From Marinobacter sp. F4218 (GTDB lineage Bacteria; Pseudomonadota; Gammaproteobacteria; Pseudomonadales; Oleiphilaceae): 64,000 nt of DNA. The notes below the pieces were generated by a model that worked only from the letters and a program-made list of their open reading frames with translations, was not told the DNA's origin and ran no database searches. Position numbers and translations under genes: made by a program. The DNA is taken from assembly GCF_019443085.1 (NCBI RefSeq), contig NZ_JAHZIL010000002.1, positions 62,001 to 126,000 on the forward strand, written 5' to 3'. Each line of letters opens with the position of its first letter. Position 1 is the stretch's first letter. Positions 58,021 through 64,000 of this stretch are shown piece after piece.

Positions 58021-59034
58021 TCACGCTTCCATCTCGGGACTGTAGGTGCCAGCGCGGGCGGCGCCGTTGAGTCGCGCCCGTTTCAGGATTGCCTCCTGGG
58101 CCGCAGGACCGTTCTCCAGTCTACCTGCCCAGGCTTTCTGGGCCGGTTCCTGTAGCGCCCGACCGTAGGAAAAGCTCAGCGCCCAGGGTTGGTTACCAAG
58201 GCAGTTCATTGCATTCAGATTCAGCGTTGCCTCCTCCGGAGTCTGGCCACCAGACAGGAAATTGATTCCTGGCACCGCCGCCGGGACCACCTGTCTGAAC
58301 ACCGAAATTGTCGCTTCAGCAACCTCTTCGGGCGTTGCCTTGGCGGACTCTTTCCCGGGTGTCACCATGCTGGGTTTCAGGATCATGTGCTCCAACTGGA
58401 CTCTGTGCCGGGCGAGTGCAATAAAGACCTCCCTCAGTACCGTTTTGCTGACTTCTGCGCACCGGTCGATGCTGTGGCCGCCGTCGATCAGCACTTCCGG
58501 CTCGACAATCGGAACAATTCCCATGGACTGGCAGAGCGCGGCATAGCGTGCCAGCACCTCAGCGTTGGCTTCCATAGCCTGCCGGGAAGGTAGCGTGTCC
58601 GAGATATGGAAAACATCCCGCCACTTGGCGAACCGCGCACCCCGGTTCTTGAAGATTTCCAGCCGATCATCCAGACCATCCAGTCCGAAGGTGATTTCAT
58701 CACCCGGTGCATTGATCAACGGTTTCTTGCCCTTATCCACTTTGATACCCGGGACAATACGCTGGTTCTCCAGTAATTGCGGGATCGGGATGTCGTCCAG
58801 GCTGTTCTGGCCCAGAGTTTCTTCGAACAGTATGACGCCGCTGATGAATTCCCCGAGCCCGGGCGCGGACAGGATCAGGCTTCGATATTCCCGGCGTTTT
58901 TCTTCGCTGGATTCAACGCCCACTGCGGTAAACCGTTTGGCAATGGTGGGGTGGCTCTCATCGGCGGCAAGAATTCCCTGACCCGGCTGGATAAGATCCT
59001 CAATGGTTGCAGCGAGTTCACCCTGAATGCTCAT
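58021..59034 (-). CDS. Class I fructose-bisphosphate aldolase
   Basis: 337 residues of the Schiff-base, metal-free type: start LAADESHPTIAKRF, the substrate lysine in MILKPSMV, FLSGGQTPEEATLNLNAM and SFSYGRALQ. This is the animal/plant-like class I enzyme rather than the FbaB type. It cuts fructose-1,6-bisphosphate to DHAP and glyceraldehyde-3-phosphate. Start has GGAGGAG upstream. It ends with no gap to the MBL-fold gene. DHAP is also the backbone precursor of the ether-lipid step suggested next door. Confidence 0.92.
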   Translation of the reverse strand: MSIQGELAATIEDLIQPGQGILAADESHPTIAKRFTAVGVESSEEKRREYRSLILSAPGLGEFISGVILFEETLGQNSLDDIPIPQLLENQRIVPGIKVDKGKKPLINAPGDEITFGLDGLDDRLEIFKNRGARFAKWRDVFHISDTLPSRQAMEANAEVLARYAALCQSMGIVPIVEPEVLIDGGHSIDRCAEVSKTVLREVFIALARHRVQLEHMILKPSMVTPGKESAKATPEEVAEATISVFRQVVPAAVPGINFLSGGQTPEEATLNLNAMNCLGNQPWALSFSYGRALQEPAQKAWAGRLENGPAAQEAILKRARLNGAARAGTYSPEMEA

Positions 59035-59198: not shown

Positions 59199-61265
59199 AT
59201 GAAGACGGTTGTGAGCGTCAGCCAGGGATCCTCCGAATACGATTACGATCTGGAAACGGAGTTTCTCGGACAGTCTTTCCGTATTATCCGGCTGGGGGCC
59301 GACGGTAATCTCTCCCGGGCGGAATCGATACTTGAATCGGTTCGTGAACAAGCCGATGCGATCGGTTTGAGCATGGTTCATGATCACTATGAGGTTGGGC
59401 GGGAAAAACTTCAGCACCCGGACACAGCGAGACTTGAAGCTTGGGTACCGGATCGGCCGGTAACGACCGGTGCAGGGCTCAGGGGCATCCTGCAGGAATG
59501 GGCTGTTCGCCACACGCAGTCTGAGCTAGGGCATTTCTTCGACAATGCCCGGGTGCTATTCATGAACGGCCAGGCCAGTTATCGAATAGCCAAATCATTG
59601 TCAGAACATACGGACAATCTATTTTTTGCCGATCCGTATAACGATTTTGGCGTGCCCCGCATGCTCACGTCCCTGAAGCAGCTCGAGACCTATACCTCGA
59701 TTACCGCGCCGTTGATGTTTCGGCCCACGGCGGTCAAGGCCGTGGAGACAATAATGCGTAATCCACTTTACCGTCTGGGAGAAGGCCTGGTTAAGGGCTC
59801 TCTCCATCAGGCGATTGAAAGTGCGCACGTCATCGTAGCCGCCATCGGCGATCTTGAACATTTCAGTCAGAAGCAGCTGGATGGCAAAACCGTTATCACC
59901 TCCCGGGTGACGGAGACTGCCCTGGACTGGCTGCGCTCCCGCCGGGTGGCGATGGTGGTGGATTACAGCCCCTGGCTGGAGGGCCGGCCCGTGGGGATGA
60001 ACGTCATGGAAGCAATGATCAGTGCGGCGCTGGCGCGAACACCTGAGCAGTTGGGGCCCGACGACTACCTCGATGTCATCCAGAACCTGGGAATCGAACC
60101 CAGGATTCTTTACCCGAACGGTTATCGCCGGGTAAACCGGTTTGCCTTTGTTATTCACCCGTTGTCGCAGCAGTATCTGACGAAAACTCCGCCGCTGGAC
60201 TGGATTGCAAACATTTCGCCACCCCTGGTGATGAATCTGGTTGAAAAAGCCGTGGCCTATGCGCCGCCGTTCCTTTACTCCAAGGTCTCCGGGATCCACT
60301 CGCCAACCGGTGACGAAGTTGAGGGCTGGCTGATCACGGTTGGCGGGACGCCCCGGGAAATCATGGCTCATGGTCCAGAGTTTACCTACAGTCGACTGCT
60401 CGCAGCCGCCCGGCTCGCGAAAAAACTCGGTGCTCAGGTGATGGGGCTGGGGGCCTTCACCAAGGTCGTGGGTGATGCCGGAATTACCGTGGCCAAGCGC
60501 GCGCCGTTACCGATAACCACGGGTAACAGCTACAGCGCCTCGGGGGCTCTCTGGGCCGCCCATGACGCCGTTAAACGGATTGGCCGGGTGCACATTGGCC
60601 CGAGTGGGAAAATGGCGGGTAAAGCGATGGTGGTAGGAGCAACGGGGGCCATTGGCTCTGTTTGCGCCCGGCTGTTGGCCAAGGCCGTGGATGAAATCTA
60701 TCTGGCTGCGCCTGAGCCAGCCAAGTTGCTGGCATTGAAGGAGAGCATTGAGCAGGAGACGCCGGGAGCCGTGGTACACGTAGCGGGCTCTGCGGATCGG
60801 GATGTGGCGGATATGGACATGATTGTTACCGCCACCTCCGGGGCCGGAAAACGGATTCTGGATATCATGAAAGTAAAACCCGGATGCGTAATTACGGATG
60901 TGGCGCGCCCGCTGGACATCCCGGCTGAAGATGTGGCGAAGCGTCCGGATGTCCTGGTGATTGAATCCGGCGAGATCCAGCTTCCCGGCGATGTTCATAT
61001 GAAAGATATTGGCTTACCACGAGGCATTGCGTACGCGTGCCTTGCGGAGACGATCGTACTGGCCCTCGAAGGTCGGTTCGAGAATTTTACCCTGGGCCGG
61101 GACATCGAATGGGAAAAAGTCCGTGAAATCTACAAGCTGGGTCTTCGGCACGGTATGAAACTCGCGGCCATCTCGGGCGTGAACGGCGTGTTCAGTGAGG
61201 AGGACTTTGAGCGGGTCAGGGCACTTGCGGCAGAACCTGAACTGCCCGCCCGATCAGTCAAATAA
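59199..61265 (+). CDS. Long-chain acyl-ACP-reductase-like protein with extra N-terminal domain
   Basis: 688 residues with GGGA seven bases upstream. Residues about 315-680 align by eye with cyanobacterial long-chain acyl-ACP reductase: VIHPLSQQ start, a basic LGAFTKVVG, ITTGNSYSA (439-446), Rossmann GATGAIG (480-486) and a late ACLAETIVLALEG with Cys614 at the place of the catalytic Cys. The first 310 residues are an added domain I do not know, beginning MKTVVSVSQGSSEYDYDLE. The family call predicts fatty aldehyde formation from an acyl thioester. It converges on an AGPS-like gene with 12 bases of overlap. Confidence 0.68.
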   Translation: MKTVVSVSQGSSEYDYDLETEFLGQSFRIIRLGADGNLSRAESILESVREQADAIGLSMVHDHYEVGREKLQHPDTARLEAWVPDRPVTTGAGLRGILQEWAVRHTQSELGHFFDNARVLFMNGQASYRIAKSLSEHTDNLFFADPYNDFGVPRMLTSLKQLETYTSITAPLMFRPTAVKAVETIMRNPLYRLGEGLVKGSLHQAIESAHVIVAAIGDLEHFSQKQLDGKTVITSRVTETALDWLRSRRVAMVVDYSPWLEGRPVGMNVMEAMISAALARTPEQLGPDDYLDVIQNLGIEPRILYPNGYRRVNRFAFVIHPLSQQYLTKTPPLDWIANISPPLVMNLVEKAVAYAPPFLYSKVSGIHSPTGDEVEGWLITVGGTPREIMAHGPEFTYSRLLAAARLAKKLGAQVMGLGAFTKVVGDAGITVAKRAPLPITTGNSYSASGALWAAHDAVKRIGRVHIGPSGKMAGKAMVVGATGAIGSVCARLLAKAVDEIYLAAPEPAKLLALKESIEQETPGAVVHVAGSADRDVADMDMIVTATSGAGKRILDIMKVKPGCVITDVARPLDIPAEDVAKRPDVLVIESGEIQLPGDVHMKDIGLPRGIAYACLAETIVLALEGRFENFTLGRDIEWEKVREIYKLGLRHGMKLAAISGVNGVFSEEDFERVRALAAEPELPARSVK

Positions 61266-62864
61266 AATGCCCGGGTTGAGGAGATGGTCGGGATCCACGG
61301 AGCCTTTTGCGCTACGTAGCATCGAAACAAACAGAGGCGATGCCTGCCTGAGATAATGCATTTTGTGGTCCCGTCCGACGGCGTGATGGTGGGTGATGGT
61401 CCCGCCTTCCTCGATCAAAGCGTCGGATACCGCGCGCTTGATGGCATCCCAGCGTTTCAGGTCGTCCTTGCCGTTCCCCTGGGCCATGATGGTGTAGTAG
61501 GGCGCGGGTCCGTCGGGATAAAGGTGCGTGAAGCGGCAGGTAATAAACCCTTTACCGCACTGGTCCCGGATGGCCGCATTGGCAGTGGTAAGGAGTCGCT
61601 GGTGGAACCGGTCAAACCTATCCCAGGTGATTGCCGTTTCCAACGTCTCGACGATCAGGCCCCGGCGAACCAGTTCGTCACGCAGGTAAGGCACGGTGAT
61701 GAACGCCTGTTTCCAGTTATCGGCGCCCGTGTCACGTTGCTTCGCATCGGGGTTCCCGGTCTGTGGTGACAGGTCTGTACCGCCACACTCAAGAGCCAGT
61801 GATATTGCCTGTTTCAGCCTGTCTGTCACCGGAAATGCATTGGATTCAAATCCGAGGATCAGGATGTCCTTGCTGCCATCACCCAGTCCCATGAACATGG
61901 CTTCCTGCCTGCCGATGTAGCGCGCATTGCTGGGCTGCAGGCCTGACTGACTTATCTGTCGACAGGCTTCCACGCCCTGGGAGTAGTCGGTGAATCCGAT
62001 GGTGGTCGCGGCCTTGTACTGTGGAATGGCCTGCAAGCGCACCCAGGCTTCCGTAATGATTCCCAGGGTTCCCTCGGAGCCGAGGATTAGTCGTTCCTCG
62101 CTGGGGCCGGCACCACTGCCGGGTAGGCGGCGGGTTTGCATGGTACCTTCGGGAGTGACCAGGCGGATCGATTCAACAAACTCGTCGATGTGAGTGTATT
62201 GCGTCGCGTAGTGCCCGCCCGCGCGGGTGGCGATCCATCCCCCGAGTGTCGAGAATTCAAAGCTTTGGGGAAAATGCCTCAGGGTCAGGCCAAAAGGCTT
62301 CAGCTGCCGTTCGAGGTCGGGGCCATAGGTGCCGGCCTGGATGCGGGCACATCGAGAAACCTCGTCTACCTCCAGTACCTGGTTGAAGTTCAGCATGTTT
62401 ACGGAGATCACGCCGTTGCTCTGATCCCTCGGTGGAGGCTCAATTCCACCTACCACACTTGATCCGCCCCCATAGGGAATTACATGAATCCCTTCCTGTT
62501 TGGCGAACCGGAACAGCTCGGCCAGTTGCCCGTCGGTGCCAGGAAAGGCAACGTAATCCGGAGGGTTGTCAAACTGCAGGTGTGTCGCTCGCCAGGAATC
62601 CCGGAAAGATTTGCCAAAGCAATGGTGAAGACGAATTTCCTTGTCGCTGGTCAGCCATTCGGCGAATGCCGCTGGAAGCACAAATCTTGGCTCAGGAAGC
62701 TCAATGGCTTGAGTGTCTGGCAATTCCAGAGGAGGGCTGGCACAGATTCCACTATATTGCTCCAGGAACGTGGTGAAAGCATCGACCATTGGGGTGGGAA
62801 CCGGGCTGGCCTGGTTTCCCCAACCCCAGTACCTGCGCTTCAGAAAGTCCTCGATTGTTCTCAT
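61254..62864 (-). CDS. Alkyl-DHAP-synthase-like FAD enzyme (AGPS family)
   Basis: The ATG at 62864 is preferred to a TTG at 62936. 536 residues: an N-terminal RRYWGWGNQ element (AGPS: WNGWG), FAD-binding PYGGGSSVVGG and GSEGTLGIITE, then the cap, and the His trio HHHAVGRDH at about 492-498, in the place of the active-site histidines of AGPS. The family exchanges the acyl of acyl-DHAP for a long-chain alcohol, making the ether bond of ether lipids. Related D-lactate/glycolate oxidases share the FAD fold, so the reaction needs proof. Last gene of an SDR-racemase-AGPS operon. Confidence 0.75.
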   Translation of the reverse strand: MRTIEDFLKRRYWGWGNQASPVPTPMVDAFTTFLEQYSGICASPPLELPDTQAIELPEPRFVLPAAFAEWLTSDKEIRLHHCFGKSFRDSWRATHLQFDNPPDYVAFPGTDGQLAELFRFAKQEGIHVIPYGGGSSVVGGIEPPPRDQSNGVISVNMLNFNQVLEVDEVSRCARIQAGTYGPDLERQLKPFGLTLRHFPQSFEFSTLGGWIATRAGGHYATQYTHIDEFVESIRLVTPEGTMQTRRLPGSGAGPSEERLILGSEGTLGIITEAWVRLQAIPQYKAATTIGFTDYSQGVEACRQISQSGLQPSNARYIGRQEAMFMGLGDGSKDILILGFESNAFPVTDRLKQAISLALECGGTDLSPQTGNPDAKQRDTGADNWKQAFITVPYLRDELVRRGLIVETLETAITWDRFDRFHQRLLTTANAAIRDQCGKGFITCRFTHLYPDGPAPYYTIMAQGNGKDDLKRWDAIKRAVSDALIEEGGTITHHHAVGRDHKMHYLRQASPLFVSMLRSAKGSVDPDHLLNPGILFD

Positions 62865-62951
62865 TGGCGGCGCTGCCCCTCGGCAAAGAATCGGTTGCAG
62901 GGCAGTATGGAACAGAACCTCTGAGCGTGCATTCAATGGCGTCCGGCTGGC

Positions 62952-63653
62952 CTAATTTGGTGACGCCCGAAGGGCCTCCTCCACCGCCTGTTCGGCGTGG
63001 ATGACCGTGGTGTCGTAAAGCGGAACGGGCGTATCCGATTGCTGAATCAGCAGGCCGATCTCGGTACATCCAAGAATGACGGCTTGGGCGCCCCGTGCGG
63101 ACAGGGATTCCACGATTTCCAGGTAACTTGTCCTGGAGGAGGAACGGATCGTGCCCTGGCATAATTCCTGGTAAATGACCTGGTGAACCCTTTCGCGCTG
63201 GACCTCATCCGGTATCAGAACCTCAATGTCCGCCTTTTCCAGGCGTTCCTGGTAAAATTCCTGCTCCATCGTAAACCGGGTGCCGAGGAGGCCGACCCGG
63301 GTAACTCCGTCCCGCTGTAAAACCCTGGCTGTTGCATCCGCGATATGGAGAAGCGGCATGTGTATCGACCCTTCGATCTGCGGAGCCACCTTGTGCATGG
63401 TGTTCGTGCCAATGACCAGAAAATCCGCGCCTGCGCATTCAAGTGAACGGGCGGCCGCGGAGAGGATCTCTGCCATCCTATCCCAGTTTCCCTGGTGCTG
63501 AAGTGCCTCGATCTCTGCGAAATCGACGCTGTATAAAATGACTTTTGCGGAGTGCAGGCCGCCAAGTCGCGCTCTTACTTGTTGATTGATACTTCGGTAA
63601 TAGCTCTGGGAAGATTCCCAGCTCATACCGCCCAGCAGGCCAATGGTTTTCAT
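62952..63653 (-). CDS. Aspartate/glutamate racemase (YgeA-like)
   Basis: 233 residues with a GIMSWESS-like start (GLLGGMSWESSQSYY). The two catalytic positions are Thr83 in GTNTMHK and Cys196 in LGCTEI; the Thr at the first site is the pattern of E. coli YgeA, a broad amino acid racemase. Substrate cannot be fixed from sequence. It sits 15 bases after the SDR gene and 87 bases before the AGPS-like gene, so probably co-transcribed. Confidence 0.9.
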   Translation of the reverse strand: MKTIGLLGGMSWESSQSYYRSINQQVRARLGGLHSAKVILYSVDFAEIEALQHQGNWDRMAEILSAAARSLECAGADFLVIGTNTMHKVAPQIEGSIHMPLLHIADATARVLQRDGVTRVGLLGTRFTMEQEFYQERLEKADIEVLIPDEVQRERVHQVIYQELCQGTIRSSSRTSYLEIVESLSARGAQAVILGCTEIGLLIQQSDTPVPLYDTTVIHAEQAVEEALRASPN

Positions 63654-63668
63654 CCGATTCGGTTCCCT

Positions 63669-64000
63669 TTATCGTCCCCCGGCTACATCGATAAATGATC
63701 CGGTCACATAGGATGCTTCATCCGATAAAAGCCAGCAAATTGCGTTGGCGACCTCTTCCGAAGTGCCTCCACGTTTCAGGGGAATGCCCGGTGCCAGTCG
63801 TTCCACGCGACCAGGTTCGCCGCCCGTGGCGTGAATATCGGTGTGAATGAACCCCGGCCGCACGGCATTCACCCGAATGCCACGGGTGGCCGCTTCCACG
63901 GACAACCCCTTGGTCAGGGTATCCACGGCGCCTTTCGAAGCTGCGTAATCAATATATTCAAAAGGCGAGCCGGTTTTCGAGGCCAGGGAGGAGACGTTCA
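63669..64000 (-). CDS. Short-chain dehydrogenase, C-terminal part (YgfF-like; cut by window edge)
   Basis: About 110 residues, open to the right edge. Visible: the catalytic serine in NVSSLAS, Tyr and Lys in YAASKGAV, then GIRVNAVRPGFIHTDIHA and the end ASYVTGSFIDVAGG. This agrees closely with E. coli YgfF, a classical SDR of unknown substrate. First known gene of the racemase-AGPS operon. It could reduce a keto group of an ether-lipid precursor; that is only a guess. Confidence 0.85.
   Translation of the reverse strand, partial: NVSSLASKTGSPFEYIDYAASKGAVDTLTKGLSVEAATRGIRVNAVRPGFIHTDIHATGGEPGRVERLAPGIPLKRGGTSEEVANAICWLLSDEASYVTGSFIDVAGGR

Follow-up and report, generated by a model that had tools for sequence, protein, structure and literature searches.

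The right part of the analysed DNA of Marinobacter sp. F4218 (a stretch of 64,000 nucleotides, hereafter called the window) contains two genes of putative lipid metabolism that run towards each other. The first of them, designated here RED, occupies positions 59199–61265 of the plus strand, starts with ATG and encodes a predicted two-module acyl-thioester reductase of 688 amino acids, which belongs to the AAR/PigE-N superfamily (AAR, acyl-acyl carrier protein reductase). The second is located on the minus strand (61254–62864) and encodes a flavoenzyme of the AGPS family, 536 amino acids long from the ATG at position 62864. Both open reading frames, their convergent order and the overlap of their ends had been noticed in a preliminary description of this locus and were confirmed, the overlap comprising 12 bases shared by the two 3′ ends, tail to tail. 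The same description regarded the pair as a possible complete route from acyl chains bound to acyl carrier protein (ACP) to alkyl-dihydroxyacetone phosphate (alkyl-DHAP). This interpretation was not supported, since the genes adjoin each other in the query genome only, are convergent, and five relatives lack AGPS at the same site. It is likely that RED and AGPS are separate genes of lipid metabolism, which became neighbours by a lineage-specific rearrangement, and not the components of a dedicated two-gene pathway.

Comparison of neighbourhoods provides the main evidence for that. AGPS was found beside none of 40 other RED loci from named genomes (38 of Marinobacter), 36 of which extend for at least 1.7 kb after RED and leave room for this gene, the four shorter ones being L006, L014, L028 and L032. 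Conversely, RED was absent beside window-type AGPS at all 19 other loci of the latter, inspected in stretches of 16–20 kb, and only the query genome among 20 AGPS-bearing genomes of Marinobacter has the two genes side by side. At these 19 loci AGPS is accompanied by glyS-like genes, a transport cluster and others (gene names were assigned by eye). Five relatives match the window DNA to about 61222–61253 and again from about 62980–62995, the AGPS stretch between these points being missing. In four relatives (L112, L017, L029, L040) RED is directly followed by the gene of Asp/Glu racemase, which in the window occupies positions 62952–63653 of the minus strand and borders the stretch with AGPS on the right, and in G091 the gap between RED and racemase is filled by a glutamate-synthase-like gene in place of AGPS. 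A conserved pair or operon is ruled out by these data, and the convergent orientation alone means that RED and AGPS are not one operon. The AGPS gene itself, accessory at this site, bears no compositional sign of insertion, since its GC content (0.576) and GC content at third codon positions (0.662) are similar to those of RED, the aldolase and the racemase. The stretch after RED (about 61250–62980) is variable in general: one near relative has a CDGSH/glutamate-synthase-like gene there (L111:3959–5542), and in four other relatives less than 100 bases separate RED from racemase.

The class I fructose-bisphosphate aldolase and the short-chain dehydrogenase/reductase (SDR) mentioned earlier as companions of the pair were both found, the former at 58021–59034 (minus strand, divergent from RED, context only) and the latter on the AGPS side from position 63669 past the window end, also on the minus strand. 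The racemase gene separating AGPS from SDR was absent from the preliminary description. The suggested operon partnership of SDR was not upheld: SDR with at least 69% identity occurs in only 3 of 20 AGPS genomes and is therefore no fixed partner of AGPS. The aldolase-RED arrangement was registered at 33 of 40 RED loci; of the seven without it, one ends at RED. Outside Marinobacter RED was seen in Rhodoferax (L033), Hahella (L038) and two further gammaproteobacteria (L109, L110), and these contexts gave one useful neighbour, namely an iron-containing alcohol dehydrogenase that is divergent from the RED orthologue in Rhodoferax (L033:8614–9888), which suggests that it serves there as the aldehyde-to-alcohol partner of RED. 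In a few genomes (L040, G065, G077, G088 and G441) RED is distributed over two or three frames. For M. similis (L040 and G065 are the same assembly) this may be due to sequencing errors, because the gene adjoining RED is split too.

Another aspect of association, i.e. co-occurrence in genomes, was estimated for 124 Marinobacter genomes. RED is present in 84 of them and window-type AGPS (47–100% identity) in 20, and two observations here weigh against the independence of the two genes. All 20 AGPS genomes are RED-positive (uncorrected p 1.8e-4), and simulated gain and loss along a phylogenetic tree gave an outcome as extreme in only 42 of 4669 (0.009) or 48 of 2370 (0.020) runs. The tree was built from one gene, HtpG, and covered 101 of 124 genomes, with 9 parsimony steps for AGPS and 11 for RED; it left out 18 RED-positive AGPS-negative genomes (G089 with partial HtpG among them) and five RED-negative ones (G050 with partial HtpG; G063, G074, G075 and G076 with no match), the RED-negative genomes being listed by subtraction from the RED table. 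Control genes behaved in different ways. SDR at the threshold of at least 69% identity was confined to RED-positive genomes just as AGPS was (7 of 7), at the threshold of at least 56% identity three of its 11 genomes were RED-negative, the racemase was found in 64 of 84 RED-positive versus 22 of 40 RED-negative genomes (hand count), and the remaining control gene, present in 114 of 124 genomes, was too widespread to be informative. Moreover, 64 of 84 RED-positive genomes do without window-type AGPS. Among nine further RED genomes, some of which represent the same species as the genus set, AGPS-like proteins were not detected at E 1e-25 in four, whereas those of the remaining five reached only 33–38% identity. 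The named loci and the genus set are not independent, since several of them come from the same assemblies (e.g. L017 and G060). Thus, the co-occurrence of RED and AGPS, which the preliminary description proposed to check, was registered genome-wide as a weak, suggestive signal, to which an equally confined control must be opposed, and was not registered as adjacency. At E 1e-10 RED was detected in 5 of 369 gammaproteobacterial genomes. Besides the query these comprise a relative matched over the full length (54%), another in which RED is split between two frames, and two genomes with short matches to the C-terminal part.

The assignment of the first protein to acyl-ACP-reductase-like enzymes proved to be correct for one of its two modules: likeness to AAR by sequence is confined to the second half of RED, a circumstance absent from the preliminary description. 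The C-module (residues 313–688; 60135–61262, plus strand) is an active-type AAR-like module. In NCBIfam the best match of RED was the PigE profile NF053554 (residues 314–676 on positions 1–356 of 837, E 9e-49), followed by AAR profile TIGR04058 (residues 354–654, E 1e-17). Neither curated cut-off was reached, the scores being 166.5 vs 850 bits for PigE, where the aminotransferase part is unmatched, and 64.5 vs 449.7 bits for AAR. The best sequence matches in PDB were again PigE (4ppm, E 9.3e-25) and AAR (6jzq, E 8e-12). Cys614 (codon at 61038–61040, plus strand) aligns with Cys294 of AAR and Cys296 of PigE (PMC8341465, PMC9594044), and together with the dinucleotide-binding motif GATGAIG (codons 480–486; 60636–60656, plus strand) it is present in all 29 aligned sequences, i.e. 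window RED and 28 relatives. The AlphaFold2 model obtained with these 29 sequences had a mean predicted local distance difference test score (pLDDT) of 80.3 and a predicted template-modelling score of 0.77, mean pLDDT of the other four models being 61.5–68.6. Its residues 314–670 superimposed on AAR (6jzq_A) with Z 29.0 (322 aligned residues, root-mean-square deviation 4.5, 25% identity), and the first structure beyond AAR and TAD entries scored Z 14.7. Thus, the fold, the catalytic Cys and GxxGxxG, by which the AAR superfamily is recognised, were all found in this module, and of the checks proposed earlier the profile search gave PigE and AAR and the structure prediction gave AAR. Classification of RED with amino-acid or shikimate dehydrogenases was rejected, Pfam matches to such enzymes being only sub-threshold as against the clear AAR fold.

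As stated in PMC8341465, the N-terminal domain of PigE is homologous to AAR and has the conserved Cys296. PigE was concluded there to reduce the thioester, even though no product was detected with the purified protein and NAD(P)H. The TamH domain was classed as AAR by sequence and coupled assay, and free acyl-CoA was not accepted, according to PMC9594044. Homology to PigE, TamH and AAR modules makes reduction of acyl thioesters to fatty aldehydes a good inference for the C-module of RED. A role of RED in initiating alkane synthesis together with aldehyde-deformylating oxygenase (ADO) was discarded, as the profile search for PF11266 gave no match in the genome.

The most unusual feature of the locus is the two-module organisation of this reductase. 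The N-module (residues 1–312; 59199–60134, plus strand) has no sequence match: scanning of five RED N-modules against NCBIfam returned no family in each case, and the search of PDB sequences gave chance matches only (best E 0.93). Modelled alone, it reached pLDDT 88.6, and VIA-align, which re-scored Foldseek's top 1000 structures, placed AAR first (Z 14.7 over 254 residues, 3–311 of the model on 1–345 of the chain), followed by TAD (Z 14.0) and by the next fold, malic enzyme (Z 10.1). TAD and AAR are also at the top of the 50 Foldseek rows ordered by query template-modelling score (0.50 and 0.48). In our own reading of the DSSP output, helices and strands follow in a corresponding order along most of both halves of RED, and N268 falls at the place of C614. 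In the 29 sequences this position, matched to the Cys via the order of secondary structures, is N in 27 cases, D in one and V in one. GxxGxxG is absent at residues 122–128 in all 29 sequences, and the N-module has no Cys common to all of them; column 82 has Cys in 19 of 29, the window protein not being among them. The idea that the N-module is an aldehyde reductase, which would make RED a four-electron enzyme, was rejected owing to the lack of GxxGxxG at the matching place and of a universally conserved Cys. According to these models, it is quite likely that RED combines a pseudo-AAR with an AAR of the active type in one fused protein, and the N-module would then have a non-catalytic role, for instance in docking of the carrier protein, in dimerisation or in handling of the acyl chain.

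Two observations speak against the assignment of the N-module to the AAR fold. Its assignment rests on predicted structure and, since Foldseek E-values favour sugar-binding proteins (1.7e-5) and put TAD fourth (4.8e-5) and AAR thirteenth (3.0e-4), depends mainly on VIA-align. Direct comparison of the N- and C-module profiles by hhalign gave E 0.11, and 26 of 300 column shuffles scored as high; the best stretch, 85–148 of the N-module on 436–507 of RED, agrees with the structural register, the comparison as such being not significant.

The gammaproteobacterial relative G441 (two overlapping frames) has the C-module and no N-module match in an 18-kb stretch, and all 13 plasmid matches fall within residues 302–681 of RED, the gene annotation at 12 of these matches being class III aminotransferase.

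The protein encoded on the opposite strand combines the domains FAD_binding_4 and FAD-oxidase_C and has AGPS as its best match, so the earlier call remains in force for it as well. It matched AGPS of Dictyostelium with 254.9 bits (E 1.5e-74) and that of guinea pig with 202.5 bits (E 1.2e-58), far above the best non-AGPS protein, glycolate oxidase (94.9 bits, E 4.5e-26), and D-lactate dehydrogenase (84.5 bits). Ten of 13 compared guinea-pig positions are identical (His300, Thr309, Arg419, Arg515, Glu526, Tyr578, His615–617 and Lys624). The remaining three are substituted, with Thr in place of Ser527, Ala in place of Cys576 and Leu in place of Lys628, and speak against the assignment. Presumably the His-His-His triad, Tyr578, Arg419, Arg515 and His300 are of functional importance. 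In window numbering His197, Arg315, Arg395, Tyr456 and His492–494 (triad codons at 61383–61391, minus strand) are invariant among the window-type orthologues (20 of 20). A D-lactate or glycolate dehydrogenase was rejected because of the scores and the active site. Since both enzyme-class calls hold, neither protein joins the family that the preliminary description had counted against itself, i.e. amino-acid dehydrogenases for the first and D-lactate dehydrogenases for the second. The product of the accessory gene is a probable alkyl-DHAP synthase. One of its window-type copies (G069:C23:45324–46925, L063) contains an in-frame TAG. The query genome has a second AGPS-like gene (C2:344625), 34% identical to that of the window and arranged in a row with genes of an FAD oxidoreductase similar to GlpD and of a kinase of the FGGY family (L047:7464–12311; C2, about 341463–346310). 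This paralog is genus-wide, equals window AGPS in the AGPS score (258.9 bits) and has H-Q-H instead of H-H-H in all seven copies examined.

In the explanation preferred here, Cys614 of the C-module would accept the acyl chain of ACP or CoA, and this thioester would, as homology implies, be reduced to fatty aldehyde at the expense of NAD(P)H, while the N-module would retain the AAR-like fold with cofactor and catalytic residues lost. AGPS would convert acyl-DHAP and fatty alcohol to alkyl-DHAP and fatty acid, being an accessory enzyme encoded at positions that differ between species, as opposed to RED common in Marinobacter. Any pathway shared by them would operate in trans, via an alcohol pool also fed by two FAR-like enzymes. 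These correspond to the two strongest of nine matches to the FAR-type domain NAD_binding_4 in the genome, and their open frames encode 517 and 662 amino acids (the domain also has matches in all 14 control genomes). Marinobacter FARs have about these lengths. With two such candidates available, AGPS does not depend on RED for its alcohol.

For RED alone this explanation has a narrower form, in which its aldehyde or alcohol serves wax esters or general lipid turnover and has nothing to do with ether lipids. Marinobacter makes wax esters, RED is common in the genus with or without window-type AGPS, and the Rhodoferax alcohol dehydrogenase would fit such a function. On the other hand, alcohol formation could be covered by the two FAR-like proteins, and no RED locus by itself indicates wax esters, wax synthase not having been searched for. 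We regard this version as possible, though the larger part of our expectation lies elsewhere. It is rather unlikely that the AGPS-like protein is some other FAD-linked oxidase of the same superfamily. Family names given by sequence do not prove function, the paralog with H-Q-H beside glycerol-phosphate-oxidase-like and FGGY kinase genes has a similar AGPS likeness, and Ala replaces Cys576 along with two other substitutions; at the same time, the triad, Tyr and both Arg are retained in every window-type orthologue, and the score exceeds that of glycolate oxidase by 160 bits.

Still less probable is a single ether-lipid route in trans, in which the aldehyde produced by RED passes to an unlinked alcohol dehydrogenase and then, as alcohol, to AGPS, the two genes having become neighbours once. 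The intact active site of AGPS, its restriction to RED-positive genomes (20 of 20 versus 84 of 124 overall), retained after correction for the tree, the alcohol dehydrogenase of Rhodoferax and bacterial precedents of a reductase near AGPS (MXAN_1675/1676, PMC9131029; FcrA, PMC11948995) are consistent with it. It is opposed by adjacency in one of 20 AGPS genomes and at none of the other RED loci, by RED genomes without AGPS, by the two FAR-like proteins, by the equal confinement of control SDR and by the fact that the acyl-DHAP step has only family-level candidates, i.e. ten PF01553 acyltransferases. The most specific version, according to which a subset of Marinobacter makes 1-O-alkyl ether lipids by feeding AGPS in trans from the pseudo-AAR and AAR fusion through an unlinked aldehyde reductase, AGPS being kept only where the reductase exists, is improbable.

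Thus, there is little out of the ordinary in the pair itself, whose members are plausible enzymes of lipid metabolism adjoining each other in a single species. More unusual is that a common Marinobacter reductase appears to fuse inactive and active-type AAR modules and, if this is true, would show how a pseudo-partner can regulate or dock an AAR. For the question of ether lipids in Marinobacter the relevant gene is the accessory AGPS with the full His triad, as opposed to the paralog minus one histidine. The open-licence papers searched yielded nothing on the roles of AGPS residues, on a RED-type reductase or on an AAR-AGPS route, and the latter, if true, would be undescribed for these gammaproteobacteria in that literature. 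AGPS homologues occur in many bacterial phyla, and PMC11868695, which reports this, warns with respect to elbD that the presence of a gene does not prove the lipid. The order of ether-lipid steps is given for mammals in PMC9702350.

Among known systems, the window AGPS shares the domains and the H-H-H, Tyr and Arg positions with the solved enzymes (2uuu, 4bby), its best matches in PDB, and with MXAN_1676 of M. xanthus. In M. xanthus (PMC9131029) the reductase forming fatty alcohol is encoded close to AGPS (MXAN_1675/1676), and the operon of AGPS includes a FAR-GNPAT fusion; the disruption reported there changed ether lipids only slightly. No such gene adjoins the window AGPS. In ‘Ca. Promineifilum breve’ the fatty acyl-CoA reductase FcrA is encoded nine genes from AGPS, and PMC11948995 contains an earlier proposal that a reductase plus AGPS lead to bacterial ether lipids. 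FcrA, however, is a relative of HMG-CoA reductase and makes the alcohol directly, while RED is of the AAR type. Cyanobacterial AAR (TIGR04058, 6jzq) shares with RED the fold of residues 314–670, GxxGxxG and the catalytic Cys, but RED has an additional N-module of 312 residues, and its genome gave no match to ADO. The carmabin TAD domain (9e4s/9e56) has an AAR-like fold (Z 28.1 to RED and 14.0 to the N-module), but belongs to a natural-product assembly line and shares 17–18% identity with RED. The closest sequence match is PigE with the same Cys (Cys296); the thioester-reductase domains of PigE and TamH, acting in prodigiosin and tambjamine synthesis, are fused to a pyridoxal-phosphate aminotransferase, whose place as fusion partner is taken in RED by the AAR-like N-module.

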